Shown here: one piece after another, positions 6,160 through 15,362 of the stretch
Numbering within the stretch: the stretch's first letter is position 1
Layout: every line of letters starts with the position of its first letter
Translations under genes and position numbers: made by a program
DNA from: Nitrospinae bacterium RIFCSPLOWO2_12_FULL_45_22
GTDB taxonomy: Bacteria; 2-12-FULL-45-22
Direction of reading: 5' to 3'
Assembly: GCA_001803565.1 (NCBI GenBank)
Contig: MHDQ01000039.1
Span: 4,304 to 22,408, forward strand
DNA: 18,105 nucleotides
Notes under the pieces: generated by a model
The model's database searches: none
What the model was told of the DNA's origin: nothing
What the model saw: only the letters and a program-made list of their open reading frames with translations

Positions 6160-6295
6160 GTAACTATTCACCGCTGAACCAGACGCTGAGGCGCAGAGTC
6201 TTCTTACGGATCGTAAGGAGTAAGGTGTGAGGGTGAGGGGGCATCTCCTTACGCCTAACGCTCTCACGCCTTACGGGGCGTCTCTGCGGTTACCC
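6160..6295. repeat. Inverted interspersed repeat mosaic (CGCAGAG / CTTACGCC type)
   Basis: The gap between the convergent genes is a composite repeat. A plus-strand AGACGCTGAGGCGCAGAG (about 6171-6188) faces a minus-strand ACCGCAGAGACGC (about 6278-6292). Between them, CGTAAGGAG (6211-6219) pairs with CTCCTTACG (6245-6253), and GTGAG/CTCAC-CCTTAC elements repeat. From memory, the ACCGCAGAGACGC motif is a common dispersed repeat in Desulfobacterota and Planctomycetota-like genomes. The repeat overlaps the 3' end of the minus-strand gene 6271-6858 and supplies its stop codon. Confidence 0.7.
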
Positions 6296-6858
6296 CAGGG
6301 TATTGAGCAATTACCTAAATTGTTACAACTTGTGGGATTTTCTATAGCCGTTATTATCTCTTGTAATTTGCTGCTATATTCTTTTTCTAAGGCAGCTAAT
6401 AGTTGCATCCCTTCCCTGGAGCCCTCAGGATTAGGAGTGATAGCAGCACCCCTTATTCCCCGCTGGGCCAATTCTTCTACGATTAGCTTTTCTATAGCCT
6501 TTAGTTTCTCTCCCCTTGCCCGCTGGTACTCCCCGTATAGTCCTTCTATCTTAGTCGCTACCGTTTGACCATTCTTTTGGAAGCGGTTGATAACTTCTAG
6601 CAGCTTATCATTAATATTAGAGATGGTGTTGGGCTTTGACCATACCAACGATAGAAATTCCCTGGTAAGTAGCTCATCTCTACTTAATATCTTCTCTATA
6701 GCCTCTAGCCTATCTTCACCGGACCAGTATCTGGTTAGCAAGCCGGTGGCCTGGGATATATATTCCTGTTTCTTTATCTCCTCTCTCTCTTCCTGTGTGG
6801 TCTTAATTTCTCTGGTCTTCTCTAAAGCCAGTTCTAAGGCACTCTTTAACTCACTCAC
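6271..6858 (-). CDS. Hypothetical helical protein
   Basis: GTG start at 6858 with GGGGAGGG about 10 bases upstream; the 195-residue product is acidic/basic-rich and almost wholly helical. I do not recognise the family. The start MSELKSALELALEKTREI and the LEALEKEYSSKL-like tail suggest a coiled-coil or helical-bundle cytoplasmic protein, with no signal peptide, transmembrane segment or catalytic motif. The last seven residues (GNRRDAP) are encoded by the interspersed repeat at 6160-6295, so the native C terminus was probably replaced when the repeat arrived, or the repeat was recruited as coding sequence. It is convergent with the molybdopterin gene and has its own promoter candidate, so it is a single-gene unit. 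Confidence 0.7.
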   Translation of the reverse strand: MSELKSALELALEKTREIKTTQEEREEIKKQEYISQATGLLTRYWSGEDRLEAIEKILSRDELLTREFLSLVWSKPNTISNINDKLLEVINRFQKNGQTVATKIEGLYGEYQRARGEKLKAIEKLIVEELAQRGIRGAAITPNPEGSREGMQLLAALEKEYSSKLQEIITAIENPTSCNNLGNCSIPWGNRRDAP

Positions 6859-7183: not shown

Positions 7184-7615
7184 ATGAGCCAAGTGATAGA
7201 ATTGCGCCTAGAAGTTGAACCTATAAGCCCAGACACACCTTCTACTGTAAGTTCTCTCATAAAAGAGGCAATTGATGAATCAATCACCGCCAGTGGGATA
7301 AAACATGTAATATCCCCCCAAGAACTGAGTATAGTATTTGAACAGCACTTACCAACACCCCAAGATTTGGTTTTGGTAGTTTCAATTATCCAGTTAGTGA
7401 TCACCGCAGACCCACAATTTTTCTCAAGAATAAAGATATTTTTAGATTATCTTTTCGCAAATGTAAAATTCAAAAAAGCTGCTCCCCAAAAAATAAACGC
7501 TAAAATTTCAATGGGAGATAAAAAAATTGAGGTCAAAAATCTTAGTGTTGAAGATGCCATTAAAGTCATAACGAAAAATTATGAAGTTCATTTTAATCCT
7601 ACTGGAAAAGGTTAG
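7184..7615 (+). CDS. Small EACC1-like (effector-associated component) protein
   Basis: ATG 7184 has a strong GGAGG site (7171-7175). The 143-residue product has a variable N-terminal part, a hydrophobic helix-rich core (about 62-92, VLVVSIIQLVITADPQFF), then a basic linker and a strand-strand-helix module (INAKISMGDKKIEVKNLSVEDAIKVI, 104-129). This order (hydrophobic helix, then KxxVxxGDKxIEV..LS.EDAxKVI) resembles the effector-associated constant component EACC1 described in multigene bacterial conflict systems, but I have only the pattern, not a search. It is six bases upstream of the predicted peptidase and almost certainly co-transcribed with it. Such components are thought to link a sensor to an effector. 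Alternatively it is an unrelated hypothetical membrane-associated protein. Confidence 0.75.
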   Translation: MSQVIELRLEVEPISPDTPSTVSSLIKEAIDESITASGIKHVISPQELSIVFEQHLPTPQDLVLVVSIIQLVITADPQFFSRIKIFLDYLFANVKFKKAAPQKINAKISMGDKKIEVKNLSVEDAIKVITKNYEVHFNPTGKG

Positions 7616-7621
7616 AATACT

Positions 7622-8674
7622 ATGCCTTTAGATCCTGAACGGCAGGCAATATTGGATATATATTGTCATGTATTTGAAAAGTTGCTTGGGCATCTTAACA
7701 TTTTTGAAACACCTTCTATTATTGATTGCGATTGTTACGCAATTGTTAGAGAATGTTTTGATCCTGCCGTTAAGGAATTTGGTAAAAATCCACCTCTAAC
7801 CAATGACAAAGGAGTTCTTCTTCAAGATCTACTGAAAAAAATAGAGGGCTTATTTAGCTTTAACTATTCAAGTCACAATGATTTGCTAGATTCATTTCAG
7901 CGTTATAAATATCTTGTTCTGAATACACCTATTTTATCTCCTACCTGGATAGATAACTCTCAGGAAATCGGAGAAAGATTATCATGTCAATTTTATTCAC
8001 AAGTTTCCAGTCAAAAATATCAAGGTCTAGAAAGATCTGTTACTATTGTTATAACCCCTAGTAATAAGACATTTATTTCTTCTGTTCCCCAAAAATCTGG
8101 GGGAATAAGTGAAATATGTTTAACTTTTGGAGTAGCCGATTTTGATTTTAAGACTTATGTTAATCTCCCCTTCTATTTTTTCCACGAGTACTTATCCCAT
8201 ATACATTCGGCAAGTCTTTTTAACGAGTGTAATCTCACGCAGACATCATTATTTGAAGACGGTTGGCTTATCTATATTGCTCATCATAAATATGAAAATT
8301 ATATTCGTTCAAATCCTGAATTTGCGGAAGAACTATCCCACAAAGAGCACTATCTTAAAAGCTATATCTATTCTATCACTGACAGGGAAAAAGGAAATAA
8401 CCATGCTCAAAAAGGTTATGAACTCGCTGAAAGATTTGCACAAATTGTAGGTGAGGAACTATGTCATAAAATCAGTTTGCTTTTGGCAATGCATGACTAT
8501 GATTCCCTGCCAGGTTATTCTTTCCTGCACACTAAGTTCTTGTTTATTGTTAATAACTGGCTTCCTCGCTATTTCAAAATGGGGGAAGATGAGAAAAAAG
8601 ACGAAGTTGAGTTAATGACTTTGGCAATTGATGATCAAGAACCCCTGAAAAGTGTTTTAGAGTTGATGGAATAG
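7622..8674 (+). CDS. Predicted zinc-metallopeptidase-like protein (HEYLSH motif), possible effector
   Basis: ATG 7622 lies six bases after the previous stop; its ribosome site (AAAAGG) is inside that gene, suggesting translational coupling. The 350-residue cytoplasmic-looking protein has no signal peptide. Its centre reads FFHEYLSHIHS (His188, Glu189, His193) followed after 18 residues by FEDGWLIYIAHH (Glu212, Asp213). The spacing is HE-x3-H, one residue longer than the classic HExxH, as in the TldD class; the downstream acidic-Gly-Trp block sits where a third metal ligand is usual. The flanks are helical. I do not recognise a named family. In an EACC1-like context a protease effector is expected. 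A catalytically dead or non-peptidase metal site is possible. Confidence 0.7.
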   Translation: MPLDPERQAILDIYCHVFEKLLGHLNIFETPSIIDCDCYAIVRECFDPAVKEFGKNPPLTNDKGVLLQDLLKKIEGLFSFNYSSHNDLLDSFQRYKYLVLNTPILSPTWIDNSQEIGERLSCQFYSQVSSQKYQGLERSVTIVITPSNKTFISSVPQKSGGISEICLTFGVADFDFKTYVNLPFYFFHEYLSHIHSASLFNECNLTQTSLFEDGWLIYIAHHKYENYIRSNPEFAEELSHKEHYLKSYIYSITDREKGNNHAQKGYELAERFAQIVGEELCHKISLLLAMHDYDSLPGYSFLHTKFLFIVNNWLPRYFKMGEDEKKDEVELMTLAIDDQEPLKSVLELME

Positions 8675-9017: not shown

Positions 9018-9065
9018 TGATGGGTTAACCTAAGAGTCGTATTATATATAATAAGGATTATGGGT

Positions 9066-12000
9066 ATGAAAAGGTTTATGTTTACCACAAATAAGAAAGA
9101 ATTCAGATTTCACAAAGAAGACTTCATGGATAATGGAGAGGAAAAAAATATACTTAAGGCAGAAGATTTGCCGGGAGTCTCTAGCCTTCATCTGGAAATT
9201 CCGCTTAAGTTCCAGAAAGAATATGCGGCTCTTGAGAAGAGAGCTTTGTTTGGCAGACAAGCAATGAATATATTAAGTAGTCTATCAAGAGACCTCTTGA
9301 TCTTATCCCATGAGGAAATTTTGCGCCAAATATCCGTGAAGGCTCGTCAACTGCTAGACGTCCCTGTATGTATCCTTTGGAAACTAGACAGAAAGGACAA
9401 TAAGCTGAAGATAGTTGAATCTTGCGGTAATGTGAGTGAGGAATATAAAAAAATAGAGATTAACCCTAATGACCCCACAATGAAAGAATATCTCGATAGA
9501 AGGAATGTTGGCTATCTTATAGATGCTACCCGACAACAGAAATATTTTAAGCACTCTAAAGCGGTAGAAGAACAGGGATGGGTTTCTCTCTTGAGCGCCC
9601 CCATGAAAGTTGATGGTGACCTTATTGGGATGTTGGATATCTTTACCCTGGAAAAACGCCTTTTCGAGGACTGGGAAAAAGAGTTCTTTGGTATCTTTGC
9701 AAACTATGCTGCTGTCTCGATACAAAGGGGTGAGATACTAATTAAGCTAAAATCCAGACAGGAGCAAAACCTCCAATTGGGAGAAATTATCGCCCGTATA
9801 CATAGCTCCGATAATTTCGATCATATGTTACACTTTATTCTAATTGGTGCTACAGCTAGTTTTGGGTTGGGGTTCAATCGCGCCCTTTTATTATTAAAGG
9901 AGGAGACTACCAATACCTTTACCTTGAAAGGTAGAATGGCGATCGGAGAACTTACAAAAGATAAAGCTCTTGAGGCTTGGAAGAAGATAGATCACCTAAG
10001 CTTTGATTATTATTGTTGTATTGTACAAAAGAAAGGTATCAGCGATACCCCATTAAATCAATATGCAAGGGAAATTCTTATCCCTTTAGAAGATGGTTCT
10101 CAAGAGATCATTAAGGAAGTTTTCCGTTCAGGAAAACGCCGAATTATCTCTAAATTCGAGTTCTCTCAATTAAATGAAAGTTTAATACAAAAATTTGACC
10201 CTACTTCTGATATTATTGCTGTTCCGTTAGTAGCAAAAGGAAATAGTGTTGGTGTACTAATCGTTGATAACAAATTTAATGATCGTACATTTTCTGCAGA
10301 TGAGGTTGAATCCTTACAAGCTTTAGCTGATCAAGCCGCCATAGCGATCTTTAATTCCCTGGTACTTCGACAGAGGGACAACCAAAGTCGGCGTGAGAGG
10401 CTGATCACAGAGATCAGACAAATCGTTGAATGGCCCTTTGCTGACAAGCACCCCGGAACCTCTTATGAAAAAGAATTGGATGAGACTTTAGATTGTATAG
10501 TTAAAAAGACTGCGGAAGCCCTTCACGCTAAAGAGTGTTTCCTTAGATTGTTGAATAAGACAACCAACAATCTGGATCTGAGAGCTTACTATGATGGGAC
10601 CAATAAAAAAATAAATCTGGCTGAGGCCCGTAAATTTAAGTTGGGGGAAGGCATCGCTGGATTTGTTGCGCAGACAGGCAGAGCTTACATCTGTCCAGAT
10701 GTTTCCATAGATGAACATTATGCTGGCCCTGATATAGGTGGAAACAGAAACTCAATATTGTCTGTCCCTATCAAATCTGGTTCTGATGATGTCGTTGCAA
10801 CACTTAGTGTAGGTAGTGATAACAAAGCAGCCTTTGGAGAAGAAGAAAAAATTCTGCTTGAGGGAATAGCCAGAAGTGTTCTAATGGCTATTGAACGAGC
10901 CAATTTGATGGACACTTTGTTTCGTCTTGCCGAAGAGGCAGCGAAGGCGAGAGAGCTTGACCACCTACTCAATCAATTAACCCTTTTTGCAACGGACCTA
11001 ATGAGGGAACCGGTTTGTTTAGTCTGGTTACTCGACAAGGATAAAAATGGATTCACGGCAAGGGCGTTTCATGGACCAGCGGGACAAAACCCTGATTTGA
11101 GCAAGCTCTTTATCAGCAACAATACGGCTGAAATCGCTGAATTCTTACAGAGAGAAAAACCCCTATATATTGAAGATGCAAGGCAGAGCGAAGCGCACGC
11201 CTACAGGGAATTGGTAAAGGAACTGGATTGGAAGAGCATGCTAGCGATTCCTCTTACCTCTGAGGGGTGTGCCATTGGAATTCTGCAGATATATTCATAT
11301 CAAGAAGCACGCAGATTTACTACTTGGCAGTTGCAGCGATTCAAGACATTTGCCGCCCAAGCCTCTCTTGCTATAGAAAACTGCTATACTCGAATGAGAT
11401 TGGAGGCCCTGAATCAAGTCAACCAAGAAATGACCGAAATACCTCATAAGAAAGAGTTCTTGGATTTTCTCCTTAAGAAGAGCTTGGTGCTGGTAGGCTC
11501 CAACATCGGTTGTGTAAGCCTCCTGGATTATAATTCAGGGGAACTTAAAATAGTGGCTTCCGAGGGGATTCCGGATCACCCTTTGAAACTCGGCCAGGGT
11601 ATTACTGGTAAGGCCCTTCTGGAAGAGAAACCAATTAGGGTCGATGATGTTCTGACCAATGAGTGGCGTGACATATATTTCGAAGCCAGGAAAGATACTC
11701 GATCTGAACTGGTAATCCCTATCGTGATTTATAATTCGCAGGTTCGCATCGGTCAACAAGTCCAGTTGGCATCAAAGCCGATTGGTGTACTGCACATTGA
11801 AAGTCCCACAATTGGGGCCTTTTCTGAAAAAGATGAGCAAACTCTAGCAGCTCTCGCCCGCCAGGCCGCAATGATTCTTGATAGAATTGAGTTTGACAAA
11901 AAACTTGATGAGTTAAGGAAAGCTGAGACCACTATTCTTGCCAAGACGGACGGGGAAGGAGCTATTGGAGCTATCCGTGAAGCTATTAGCAAAATCCTGG

Positions 12001-12614
12001 GATATGAATGGGTCAATATTTCCCTGATAAATCTTGAGCTTGGCAGAATTAAATCGGAGCATGTATTCGGTCTGCCAGAGTACGAGAAAGAGACGTTCAA
12101 GAAGCTAGCGGACCATCGTCTTGATAGTAATGATATTCAGGCTGATATTGTTAGGACCAGGCATATAGAAGTTCCGGAGCCTGACGATCCCCGCTTCGAT
12201 TGTGCAATCTATGATCGTTTTAACCATAAGAAATTCATCAGGGTATATATTCCCATGATTACTTCTGAAAACACCGTCCTTGGCACAGTAGAAGCTGGTT
12301 ATGAGATGACCCTTTACAGAAAATATATCTATGAGAAGGACATACAAATCTTGAAAAAGTTTGTTGATTATGTAGTCTCTGCTCTTGGAGGAAGGAAAAG
12401 GGCGCTCTTAGATAAAATCACTCATGAACTGAGGTCACCCGCAGTAGGTATCCGAAATAATGCCAGCTTCCTACAGAGACGCTGGGAGGAATTGGAAAAA
12501 GGAAGAATCGAGCCGAAACTTAATGACATAATTGCAGATTGCGAGATATTGCTTCTTGAGGTCGAGGAGTTAGAATATCTCCAGCGGAATATCCTTACCC
12601 GAGAAGCCCAATAG
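9066..12614 (+). CDS. Multi-GAF sensor histidine kinase, N-terminal part: six GAF domains plus DHp, ended by in-frame TAG
   Basis: ATG 9066 is preferred over ATG 9060 because AAGGA (9053-9057) is eight bases upstream. No transmembrane segment is seen, so the sensor is cytoplasmic. I count six GAF-like modules, roughly 62-225, 228-440, 448-625, 628-790, 795-950 and 960-1110, each ending in the typical F...E...L...A.QAA.AI helix and GVL.V/GIL.I strand. GAF domains bind small ligands, cyclic nucleotides or chromophores; no Cys for a bilin is obvious. The DHp domain follows with ITHELRSPAVG and phospho-acceptor His1120, and its second helix ends at QRNILTREAQ. TAG (12612-12614) then stops translation, but the same frame continues directly into the ATPase domain. 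It heads a unit with a receiver, a winged-helix protein and a TPR protein. Confidence 0.88.
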   Translation: MKRFMFTTNKKEFRFHKEDFMDNGEEKNILKAEDLPGVSSLHLEIPLKFQKEYAALEKRALFGRQAMNILSSLSRDLLILSHEEILRQISVKARQLLDVPVCILWKLDRKDNKLKIVESCGNVSEEYKKIEINPNDPTMKEYLDRRNVGYLIDATRQQKYFKHSKAVEEQGWVSLLSAPMKVDGDLIGMLDIFTLEKRLFEDWEKEFFGIFANYAAVSIQRGEILIKLKSRQEQNLQLGEIIARIHSSDNFDHMLHFILIGATASFGLGFNRALLLLKEETTNTFTLKGRMAIGELTKDKALEAWKKIDHLSFDYYCCIVQKKGISDTPLNQYAREILIPLEDGSQEIIKEVFRSGKRRIISKFEFSQLNESLIQKFDPTSDIIAVPLVAKGNSVGVLIVDNKFNDRTFSADEVESLQALADQAAIAIFNSLVLRQRDNQSRRERLITEIRQIVEWPFADKHPGTSYEKELDETLDCIVKKTAEALHAKECFLRLLNKTTNNLDLRAYYDGTNKKINLAEARKFKLGEGIAGFVAQTGRAYICPDVSIDEHYAGPDIGGNRNSILSVPIKSGSDDVVATLSVGSDNKAAFGEEEKILLEGIARSVLMAIERANLMDTLFRLAEEAAKARELDHLLNQLTLFATDLMREPVCLVWLLDKDKNGFTARAFHGPAGQNPDLSKLFISNNTAEIAEFLQREKPLYIEDARQSEAHAYRELVKELDWKSMLAIPLTSEGCAIGILQIYSYQEARRFTTWQLQRFKTFAAQASLAIENCYTRMRLEALNQVNQEMTEIPHKKEFLDFLLKKSLVLVGSNIGCVSLLDYNSGELKIVASEGIPDHPLKLGQGITGKALLEEKPIRVDDVLTNEWRDIYFEARKDTRSELVIPIVIYNSQVRIGQQVQLASKPIGVLHIESPTIGAFSEKDEQTLAALARQAAMILDRIEFDKKLDELRKAETTILAKTDGEGAIGAIREAISKILGYEWVNISLINLELGRIKSEHVFGLPEYEKETFKKLADHRLDSNDIQADIVRTRHIEVPEPDDPRFDCAIYDRFNHKKFIRVYIPMITSENTVLGTVEAGYEMTLYRKYIYEKDIQILKKFVDYVVSALGGRKRALLDKITHELRSPAVGIRNNASFLQRRWEELEKGRIEPKLNDIIADCEILLLEVEELEYLQRNILTREAQ

Positions 12615-12623
12615 GAAACTATC

Positions 12624-13112
12624 TTGGTATTTAGAGACATAATTATCAAGACAATTCTTCAACTAAAGCCCCTTATGCGAGAGAAGGGTTTTGATATATC
12701 AAAGATATTTTATAGGCCAGAGTATATCCATAAGATCCCAAGGCTCCTTGTGGATCGGGCTAGACTGAATCAAGTGGTATTTAATGTGCTGATGAATGCC
12801 ATAAAATACGCCGAGGACGATCCGAATAGATTTGCCATCCGTATCGAAGTAGACGAAAACAGGAATTTCTATATCATTAAATTTAAAGATTGGGGAATCG
12901 GGGTGAAAAAAGGCCTTGAGGACAAGATCTTTGAAGCAGGGTTTCGGGCGCCAGAGGCTATTGATAAGTATGTCACTGGTTCAGGTTTAGGGCTAAAAAT
13001 TTCTCGAGACATTATGAGAGGACTTGGGGGAGACTTGAAGTTAACGAGTAGTTACAAACCTACCGAATTTGGAATGATGTTACCCAAGACATTGAGGGAA
13101 AATAAAATATGA
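12624..13112 (+). CDS. Histidine kinase catalytic ATP-binding (HATPase_c) part, separated from its kinase by the TAG
   Basis: The frame is the same as in the preceding gene: codons after the TAG read ETILVFRDIIIKTILQLKP, the normal entry into a kinase CA domain. The first usable start is TTG 12624; AGGA, formed partly by the stop codon itself (12613-12616), sits seven bases before it and could drive re-initiation. Numbering from that TTG, the 162 residues hold the N box (NVLMNAIKYA, Asn58), G1 box DWGIG (89-93), F box around 103 and G2 box GSGLG (119-123), so ATP binding looks intact. The two parts would make a 1348-codon kinase if the TAG were read through. The gene ends in ATGA, overlapping the receiver start by four bases. 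Confidence 0.85.
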   Translation: MVFRDIIIKTILQLKPLMREKGFDISKIFYRPEYIHKIPRLLVDRARLNQVVFNVLMNAIKYAEDDPNRFAIRIEVDENRNFYIIKFKDWGIGVKKGLEDKIFEAGFRAPEAIDKYVTGSGLGLKISRDIMRGLGGDLKLTSSYKPTEFGMMLPKTLRENKI

Positions 13113-13564
13113 TCCTGTTTGTAGATGATGAAACAAGAAGGATGGAGAGCTATAAGGAAGAACTGGAATTATCTGGTTATGAGGTTAAATTTCTACAGGA
13201 TGTTGATTCTGCCTGGCGATTTTTCGAGAACAATTTCGAAAAAATAGATCTCCTTATATTAGATCTTATTATGCCACCGGGACAAATCTTCAAAGATGAA
13301 AATACTGAAGATGGGTTGAGGACTGGAATTTTTCTCTTTAAGAAAATAAGGGAAAAGGCCACGGCCCTTCCTACGGTACTCTTTTCTGGTGGGCAACCAC
13401 CAGGAGGAGTCCAAGAACTTCCTGTTATTATCTTTACAAATGTCTCTGACGCCGCTGTACGGGAAATATTTCGGCGAAAGGAAAAGTGCTGGTTCATTCA
13501 CAAGGAGGATGTGTTACCCTTTGAGCTTGCTGAAAAGATAAAAGAAATCCTTGAATCATCTTAA
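13109..13564 (+). CDS. Stand-alone response regulator receiver domain
   Basis: ATG 13109 overlaps the kinase stop (ATGA), so it is translationally coupled to the kinase and is presumably its partner. The 151-residue product is a single CheY-like receiver without an output domain: acidic pair Asp6-Asp7 (FVDDE), phospho-acceptor Asp52 (LLILDLIMP) and the conserved Lys132 (FIHKED). It is longer than the usual 120-125 residues because of an insertion after Asp52 (PGQIFKDENTEDG) and a second strand-like segment: both PTVLFSGG (Ser93) and PVIIFTNVSD (Thr110) could serve as the beta-4 switch. Output must pass through another protein, most simply the downstream winged-helix or TPR protein. Confidence 0.9.
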   Translation: MILFVDDETRRMESYKEELELSGYEVKFLQDVDSAWRFFENNFEKIDLLILDLIMPPGQIFKDENTEDGLRTGIFLFKKIREKATALPTVLFSGGQPPGGVQELPVIIFTNVSDAAVREIFRRKEKCWFIHKEDVLPFELAEKIKEILESS

Positions 13565-13580
13565 GGAGATAGGAAAAACA

Positions 13581-15362
13581 ATGTCTGCCCAATTAGATGT
13601 ACCCTTCTTGGCTAATATTTTTCAAGAACTAATGGCCGTTTTAAAAGATAGCAAGAAAGCTATTTTACCTGAAAACGAGAATAAGTTTTGTGCTAGGGCT
13701 GCCGATATCCTATTGTCCGATATCATGAAGTTAAGCAAGATTGCATGGGATTGCAGCAATGGCGGTTGGATCGAGATTCGCGGAAGGTGGCAAGATATCA
13801 GAAGAAAAGTAGAAATGGCGTCGCGGAGATTTAACCTCCTAAGTCCCTTGGGCCAAAAATATTTTGAAGCAGACCTAAGAAGATGGGTGATTGAATGTGG
13901 GCTCAGGCAGGATCAGAATATAATCAGGCAACTAAAGAAAGATCCACTTTATCCTTCTGAAGCCATTAATCGCCTTTTTGAAATGGCAGAGAAGAGAATA
14001 GGTGAGAGGGTAGGTGAGTCTGATAATGGTGTAGATATTTCGTTTGATATGTCCGTATTGATCAATATTTTAGAAGAACTAAAAGATGTTTTTAAAGAAA
14101 GCGGGAAGGCTATTCTTCCTGAAAACGAGGATAAGTTTTGTGACAGGGCTGCCGATATCCTATTGTCCGATATCATGGGGTTAAGCAAGATTGCACGGGA
14201 TTGCAGCAATGGTGGTTGGATCGAGATTCGCGGAAGGTGGGATTATATAAAAAAAATATTAGAAATAGAGCAACCAATTTCCCCGAAGATTTGGGGTGAA
14301 GTATCGCTTAAGGTAAAGAGGGCTATATTAATTGCAAAAAAATTTACTGTAAGTCAAATTGTAGACATTACTGGAATAAAATATCAGAGCGTGGAAACGG
14401 TAATACAGAGGCTTCTAAAAGAAGGTGCACTTATCAAAGTCAATTCTGATAACCTGGTTTCGCCAGAAGGGACAACTACAAAGAAGGGGAGGCCCAAACA
14501 GTACTACACTTTTGCCAATCCTGAAAAAACTAAAATGCTTCGAGATAATTTGGATGCCCTCTTACAAGAGCAATCTCTGGTTGAACCATCGAGACATAAG
14601 CCTAAAAACCCCCATTTTATGAAAGCCCTTTCAACTATCGATTCGTTAGAAGCATCCTGTTCTGAAATTACTGATAATTTGTTAAATGAAATTGATATTA
14701 ATCTTTCCCTTGCGCGAGAATATGAGGAGATGGTTGATGAAAATAATGAAATAGCTATGGCATATATTGATTTTGCTCAAGCCAGATTGGAATATTTAAG
14801 AGAGGAAAGAGAAGAGGGCGAGAAACTTTTAGAGAATGCTAAAAATGTTTTCAAAAAATACAAAATGCCTGAAGAACAATCTATTGATGAATACCTAATT
14901 TCCTCAAAGTTAAGTCTTGCAATCAAAGAAACAAAAAAAGCTATTAAAAATGAAAACTATGAAATATTGGCACATAAATTAAATAGCTTAACGTCAGATT
15001 TTGCCTCCTATTCTATTTTACCCTCTATTACCTCCCGAATAAAGGAATTCATTGAAACTGCTTGCCAACTATCTAACCTAACAGGTGACTTACTGGGCAA
15101 AAATAGGAGGTTGGAAGAGCAAATTCAGTCATTATTGGAGGAGAACGAAAAACTTAAGATCCAACAACAATTATCCAGCGAAATAAATCGCAATTTATCA
15201 GAAGCAGTAAAGAATTATTCATTGATACCTGAAGCTCGTTATCCACAGCACGAATTGCCGAAACCTAGTTTATTTGGCGAAGGTGAACCATTACGACTAC
15301 CTGAAAAGGTGTTGACTCTCTCAGAATTTAGTTTACGTAATAAACGAAAGGCAGTAAATTGA
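13581..15362 (+). CDS. Winged-helix DNA-binding protein with duplicated N-terminal module and coiled-coil C terminus
   Basis: ATG 13581 has AAGGAGATAGG upstream; a TTG at 13551 would overlap the receiver gene and lacks a site. The 593-residue protein has two copies of an unrecognised module (about 10-80 and 160-230) sharing KAILPEN..KFC.RAADILLSD and CSNGGWIEIRGRW. A winged helix follows (about 235-315: FTVSQIVDITGIKYQSVETVIQ recognition region, wing GRPKQYYTF). The C-terminal half is helical, with a TPR-like stretch (about 355-500) and a coiled coil (about 505-545, RRLEEQIQSLLEENEKLKIQ). No receiver domain is present. Placed between a lone receiver and a TPR scaffold, it is the likely DNA-binding output of the pathway, though it might instead be an adaptor. 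It overlaps the next gene by four bases. Confidence 0.8.
   Translation: MSAQLDVPFLANIFQELMAVLKDSKKAILPENENKFCARAADILLSDIMKLSKIAWDCSNGGWIEIRGRWQDIRRKVEMASRRFNLLSPLGQKYFEADLRRWVIECGLRQDQNIIRQLKKDPLYPSEAINRLFEMAEKRIGERVGESDNGVDISFDMSVLINILEELKDVFKESGKAILPENEDKFCDRAADILLSDIMGLSKIARDCSNGGWIEIRGRWDYIKKILEIEQPISPKIWGEVSLKVKRAILIAKKFTVSQIVDITGIKYQSVETVIQRLLKEGALIKVNSDNLVSPEGTTTKKGRPKQYYTFANPEKTKMLRDNLDALLQEQSLVEPSRHKPKNPHFMKALSTIDSLEASCSEITDNLLNEIDINLSLAREYEEMVDENNEIAMAYIDFAQARLEYLREEREEGEKLLENAKNVFKKYKMPEEQSIDEYLISSKLSLAIKETKKAIKNENYEILAHKLNSLTSDFASYSILPSITSRIKEFIETACQLSNLTGDLLGKNRRLEEQIQSLLEENEKLKIQQQLSSEINRNLSEAVKNYSLIPEARYPQHELPKPSLFGEGEPLRLPEKVLTLSEFSLRNKRKAVN

Follow-up and report, generated by a model that had tools for sequence, protein, structure and literature searches.

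A lone in-frame amber codon between the DHp and ATPase domains of a multi-GAF histidine kinase, probably a young lesion or a wrong consensus base

Does an amber codon that falls between the phospho-acceptor and ATPase domains of a histidine kinase mark a natural two-subunit enzyme, a codon that is read through, or an interrupted gene? The question is raised by a locus of Nitrospinae bacterium RIFCSPLOWO2_12_FULL_45_22, which we analyzed within a window of 18,105 nucleotides (contig C39, positions 4304-22408). The assembly comprises 3.67 Mb in 321 contigs and is 85% complete, from which we infer that the genome is probably a metagenome-assembled draft, and the compared genomes include a single close relative, which belongs to the same order. 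Read through the stop, a continuous frame (9060-13112) encodes five GAF domains followed by the DHp and ATPase (CA) domains (Table 1). An earlier note on this DNA had described the same frame on both sides of the TAG at 12612 and a tightly coupled downstream gene, and both descriptions hold: the frame stays open to the TGA at 13110-13112, and the receiver gene starts within an ATGA overlap at 13109.

Table 1. Coordinates of the kinase locus in the window
Feature	Position	Strand	Basis
Upstream half, multi-GAF sensor and DHp (phospho-acceptor), ending at the in-frame TAG	9060..12614	+	ORF of 1184 aa; Pfam GAF x5
DHp domain (H box HELRSP); neither helix 1 nor helix 2 truncated by the stop	12396..12611	+	HK853 alignment (H260 region, helix 2)
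In-frame amber stop TAG in the DHp-CA linker	12612..12614	+	Sequence; opposite HK853 residue 324 and a sense codon in G338
Shine-Dalgarno-like AGGA that shares bases with the stop, 7 nt 5' of TTG 12624	12613..12616	+	Sequence
Possible separate CA (HATPase_c) ORF, TTG start, 162 aa	12624..13112	+	ORF list; HATPase_c 6.6e-16
Stand-alone receiver (response regulator) gene, start overlapping the kinase stop	13109..13564	+	Response_reg 1e-8

The same note placed the stop between the two catalytic domains, with kinase motifs intact on either side, and our domain analysis agrees. In Pfam searches, HATPase_c (PF02518) in the downstream half scores above the cut-off, and HisKA is found in the last 90 amino acids of the upstream half at 4.8e-4, which is under the Pfam gathering score. 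All five kinase boxes are intact: H (HELRSP), N (NVLMNAIKYAE), G1 (DWGIGV), F (IFEAGF) and G2 (GSGLGL). The read-through DHp-CA region aligns end to end with HK853 of T. maritima (231 residues, E about 1e-17), the histidine of HELRSP lying opposite H260 in a two-helix DHp as expected of a HisKA-type kinase, and the other four boxes lying in HATPase_c, again as expected; the one departure from this type is that the TAG keeps the two domains off a single uninterrupted polypeptide. In HK853, DHp helix 2 extends to about residue 317, and 315 is the last residue of a DHp construct (PMC5727384). The TAG stands opposite residue 324, seven residues past the helix end, and the TTG at 12624 maps, counted along the alignment, between residues 327 and 328. 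Such a position leaves both domains whole, so that, as read from the alignment, the predicted upstream protein has the full DHp domain and the predicted downstream ORF almost all of the CA domain. A stop would spare both domains at about 10 of the 1350 codons, a rarity that was remarked post hoc. Single-sequence fold prediction of the read-through DHp-CA region gave a pLDDT of 39.6, too low for use. Fused HisKA kinases of the HK853, WalK and EnvZ kind likewise carry DHp followed by CA with all boxes present, and differ from the window gene in its TAG in the DHp-CA linker and its five preceding GAF domains.

To what form of the gene does the interruption belong? A joined-segment search of 60 genomes returned only generic kinases, mostly 25–34% identical across the joint. 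A search of 386 genomes gave one clear relative (G338, C41:8024-8767; E 1.6e-36, next match only E 4.6e-20), which belongs to a distant bacterium. Its kinase is one uninterrupted frame of roughly 900 codons (884-aa ORF, L144:6131-8785), 35–36% identical to the window protein over DHp and CA, with 35% across the joint over 233 residues of that protein (E 3e-36). The residues flanking the TAG align with this kinase without a gap, and the position of the TAG is a sense codon there. Comparison of orthologues at this codon had been proposed in the earlier note; as the nearest relative has a sense codon, the stop is not common to both. The two loci further share a 151-aa receiver gene directly 3' of the kinase, identical in length. 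In contrast to the window gene, the relative has no stop at the joint, a different N-terminal part (no tblastn match to the GAF array) and other neighbors. Its kinase-receiver pair stands between a patatin-like gene and a PtuB-like HNH gene (G338:C41, 2664-10612), with a serine-recombinase-like gene farther upstream of the patatin-like gene, a setting that resembles a mobile or defence island.

Wider searches added no closer counterpart. No further member of the G338 kinase family was found in 385 relatives of G338 or its phylum, and no close relative of the window kinase in viral contigs or, with the G338 kinase as query at E 1e-15, in plasmids; phages and plasmids at E 1e-5 gave generic kinases only, as did the genome-contig search. 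Used as orthologue probes, the gene at 13551 had no match in 386 genomes and the gene at 7622 none in 290. The 60- and 386-genome searches listed well over a hundred kinase matches. None of those examined is cut at the DHp-CA joint, including seven stop-flagged matches that were opened in other genomes, six of which stop at their natural end. The seventh, a histidine kinase with an internal TAA close to the end of its ATPase domain (L148, G098:C29:9308-9943), is truly interrupted and indicates that single-stop kinases occur as background. With the nearest relative fused and no joint-cut kinase among those examined, these alignments lead us to conclude that the ancestral kinase gene was a single fused piece. 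A chance tandem of two never-fused genes that happen to share a frame is very improbable. Each half does have its own recognizable domain, but only three codons separate the stop from the TTG, these codons, like the residues ahead of the stop, align with the linkers of fused kinases, and the relative is one gene.

Reassignment of TAG across the genome, which the earlier note already thought unlikely, is rejected. Of 293 long genes in 524 kb of the genome, 75 terminate in TAG, 143 in TAA and 75 in TGA, and RF1 is present (535 bits). A more local alternative is that this one TAG is partly read through, by a suppressor tRNA, pyrrolysine or leaky termination, to give a short and a full-length kinase. 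The frame is open on both sides, as this would demand, and in a genome 85% complete the genes responsible could be missed. However, none of the tRNAs resolved among 36 matches (a partial one at a contig start excepted) has the UAG-reading CUA anticodon, no match to the PylS N-terminal domain, which covers one form of PylS only, was found in the genome, and the RNA 3' of the stop is unremarkable in structure (z –0.5 and –1.65). The incompleteness of the genome means that these absences are not absolute; recoding is still unlikely, and with RF1 present and a quarter of genes ending in TAG we regard partial read-through as a very remote prospect.

The likeliest of the alternatives is that the stop is functional, translation ending at the TAG and restarting at the TTG at 12624 to yield sensor-DHp and ATPase subunits that would meet in trans and phosphorylate the adjacent receiver. 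The earlier note had proposed that the stop codon itself forms a re-initiation site. The elements that it named are present, the first TTG, ATG or GTG after the stop being this TTG, with the AGGA 7 nt ahead. To gauge chance, artificial TAGs were introduced at randomly chosen codons in 283 of the genome's genes, and the six codons after each were inspected: 25% of these stops were followed by an in-frame start, and 6.0% by one that also had a Shine-Dalgarno match of at least 4 bases. TTG starts look common in the genome (46 of the 283 genes, by a crude best-SD call). At a chance frequency of 6% the re-initiation site is weak evidence when taken alone, and the predicted AGGA/TTG feature is suggestive at most.

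Other observations can be read in favor of such a split kinase. The stop falls exactly at the DHp/CA boundary, so that the halves form separate ORFs divided at a domain border, as in natural splits; EnvZ cut into the same two domains still works, and 3.66% of HisKA proteins in SMART lack a HATPase domain (PMC3591291); and natural split CheA kinases exist (PMC3591291, PMC7656254). Against this, conservation of the split in relatives, which a natural split should show, is not seen: neither the nearest relative nor any other kinase examined is divided at the joint, and there is no second example. Barring contig-edge or degenerate cases, no other CA-only ORF occurs among the 36 HATPase_c matches in the genome. 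The HE/DxxN/T phosphatase motif of bifunctional split kinases (PMC3591291) is not strictly present either, as the H box reads HELRS with Ser, rather than Thr or Asn, at the N/T position, which is a conservative change. We therefore think it unlikely that the locus encodes a functional split kinase. The fuller proposal, that one message of a HisKA-type kinase naturally yields two subunits, with the stop forming part of the ribosome-binding site of the ATPase subunit and the restart rate setting kinase strength, we hold to be quite unlikely.

How exceptional is the interruption, and has the gene decayed around it? We surveyed 524 kb, roughly a seventh of the genome, for neighboring ORF pairs that share a frame and carry coding signal, and the window kinase was the only pair that looks like one gene cut by a lone in-frame stop. 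The other same-frame pairs, judged by eye at their junctions, resemble ordinary gene borders, with downstream starts similar, for example, to CheY, RuvC, ClpC and LpxA. Coding signal is 0.106 before the stop vs 0.095 after it (genome mean 0.148, sd 0.068); the downstream half shows no measurable decay, and the rest of the 4-kb kinase gene is undamaged. An undecayed downstream half is compatible with a young lesion, a consensus error and a maintained split alike, and the lack of erosion on either side fits a single recent event.

The reading that we favor is that an ancestrally fused multi-GAF kinase gene has acquired one young nonsense substitution, either real in cells or present only in the consensus of the draft assembly. 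We consider this probable. The properties of a young lesion are found together here, namely an intact relative, a single lesion and no other decay. Also counted in its favor is a ketoacyl synthase ORF on the same contig (2134-2766, + strand), FabF-like, which lacks its middle 194 residues (model positions 89-282) as one in-frame deletion, either a real deletion or an assembly collapse; a full-length FabF is encoded elsewhere in the genome (G000:C278). Counted against it are the domain-sparing position of the stop and, as a further improbability, the Shine-Dalgarno-like match with its start. A recent nonsense mutation or base-call error, which the earlier note gave as the plain alternative, thus becomes the best reading, given that relatives are uninterrupted at the joint and that the searches returned no suppressor tRNA or PylS. 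The two outcomes which that note had put forward, separate subunits or suppression, find positive support in nothing but the location of the stop and the Shine-Dalgarno-like match, and the same uninterrupted relatives, the same searches and the chance frequency of the restart site speak against them.

From what is observed at the locus (the stop, intact flanking domains, a fused relative and TAG as a normal stop), we infer when and how the lesion arose and which proteins it would leave. If the TAG is real, RF1 would end translation after a complete sensor-DHp protein without the ATPase domain. This product, predicted probably to have no kinase activity of its own, could at best dimerize and be phosphorylated in trans. 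Isolated DHp domains of EnvZ and NtrB show phosphatase activity (PMC3510030), and by analogy with these fragments the sensor-DHp protein may act as a phosphatase on the neighboring receiver, although its own phosphatase position is Ser. The ATPase half would be made weakly, by restart at the TTG.

The surroundings of the kinase contain further features. Tandem cobalamin riboswitch aptamers (1402-1521 and 1698-1912, – strand) point towards an ORF at 648-1361 and a CbiM-like gene at the window start. Orphan genes lie beside the kinase at 6271-6858 (–), 7184-7615 (+) and 7622-8674 (+), the first with a sub-threshold match to a NACHT N-terminal helical domain (NNH2); these three are possibly a defence or conflict island. 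Another orphan, of 603 aa (13551-15362, +), has an N-terminal internal duplication whose copies are identical at 49 of 64 residues, a sub-threshold hint of a MarR/TrmB-like wHTH and a weak Csa3-like match. A reading of the kinase itself as part of a defence system, through PADLOC matches to PDC-M43B and SduA, was rejected; these matches extend over no more than the generic HATPase and receiver parts.

Among systems already described, split EnvZ, CheA3/CheA4 and Hik36/Hik43 likewise have their phospho-acceptor and ATPase parts on two polypeptides (PMC3591291, PMC7656254). Unlike the window stop, the EnvZ split was made by hand, and split CheAs are divided at the level of P1/HPt into ordinary separate genes, whereas the window gene has a lone in-frame stop. 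The locus also resembles singleton interrupted coding sequences or young pseudogenes, which show one lesion, no other decay and no conserved lesioned copies (criteria of PMC3711429), although that survey treats frameshifts and the lesion here is a nonsense codon. Most probably the window case is a single interrupted gene of a draft assembly, and it illustrates that calling an enzyme split takes more than a stop at a domain boundary and a nearby Shine-Dalgarno match. Should the split prove real and under selection, it would form a natural counterpart of hand-cut EnvZ and would serve to test the proposal that separated domains give switch-like signalling (PMC3591291).
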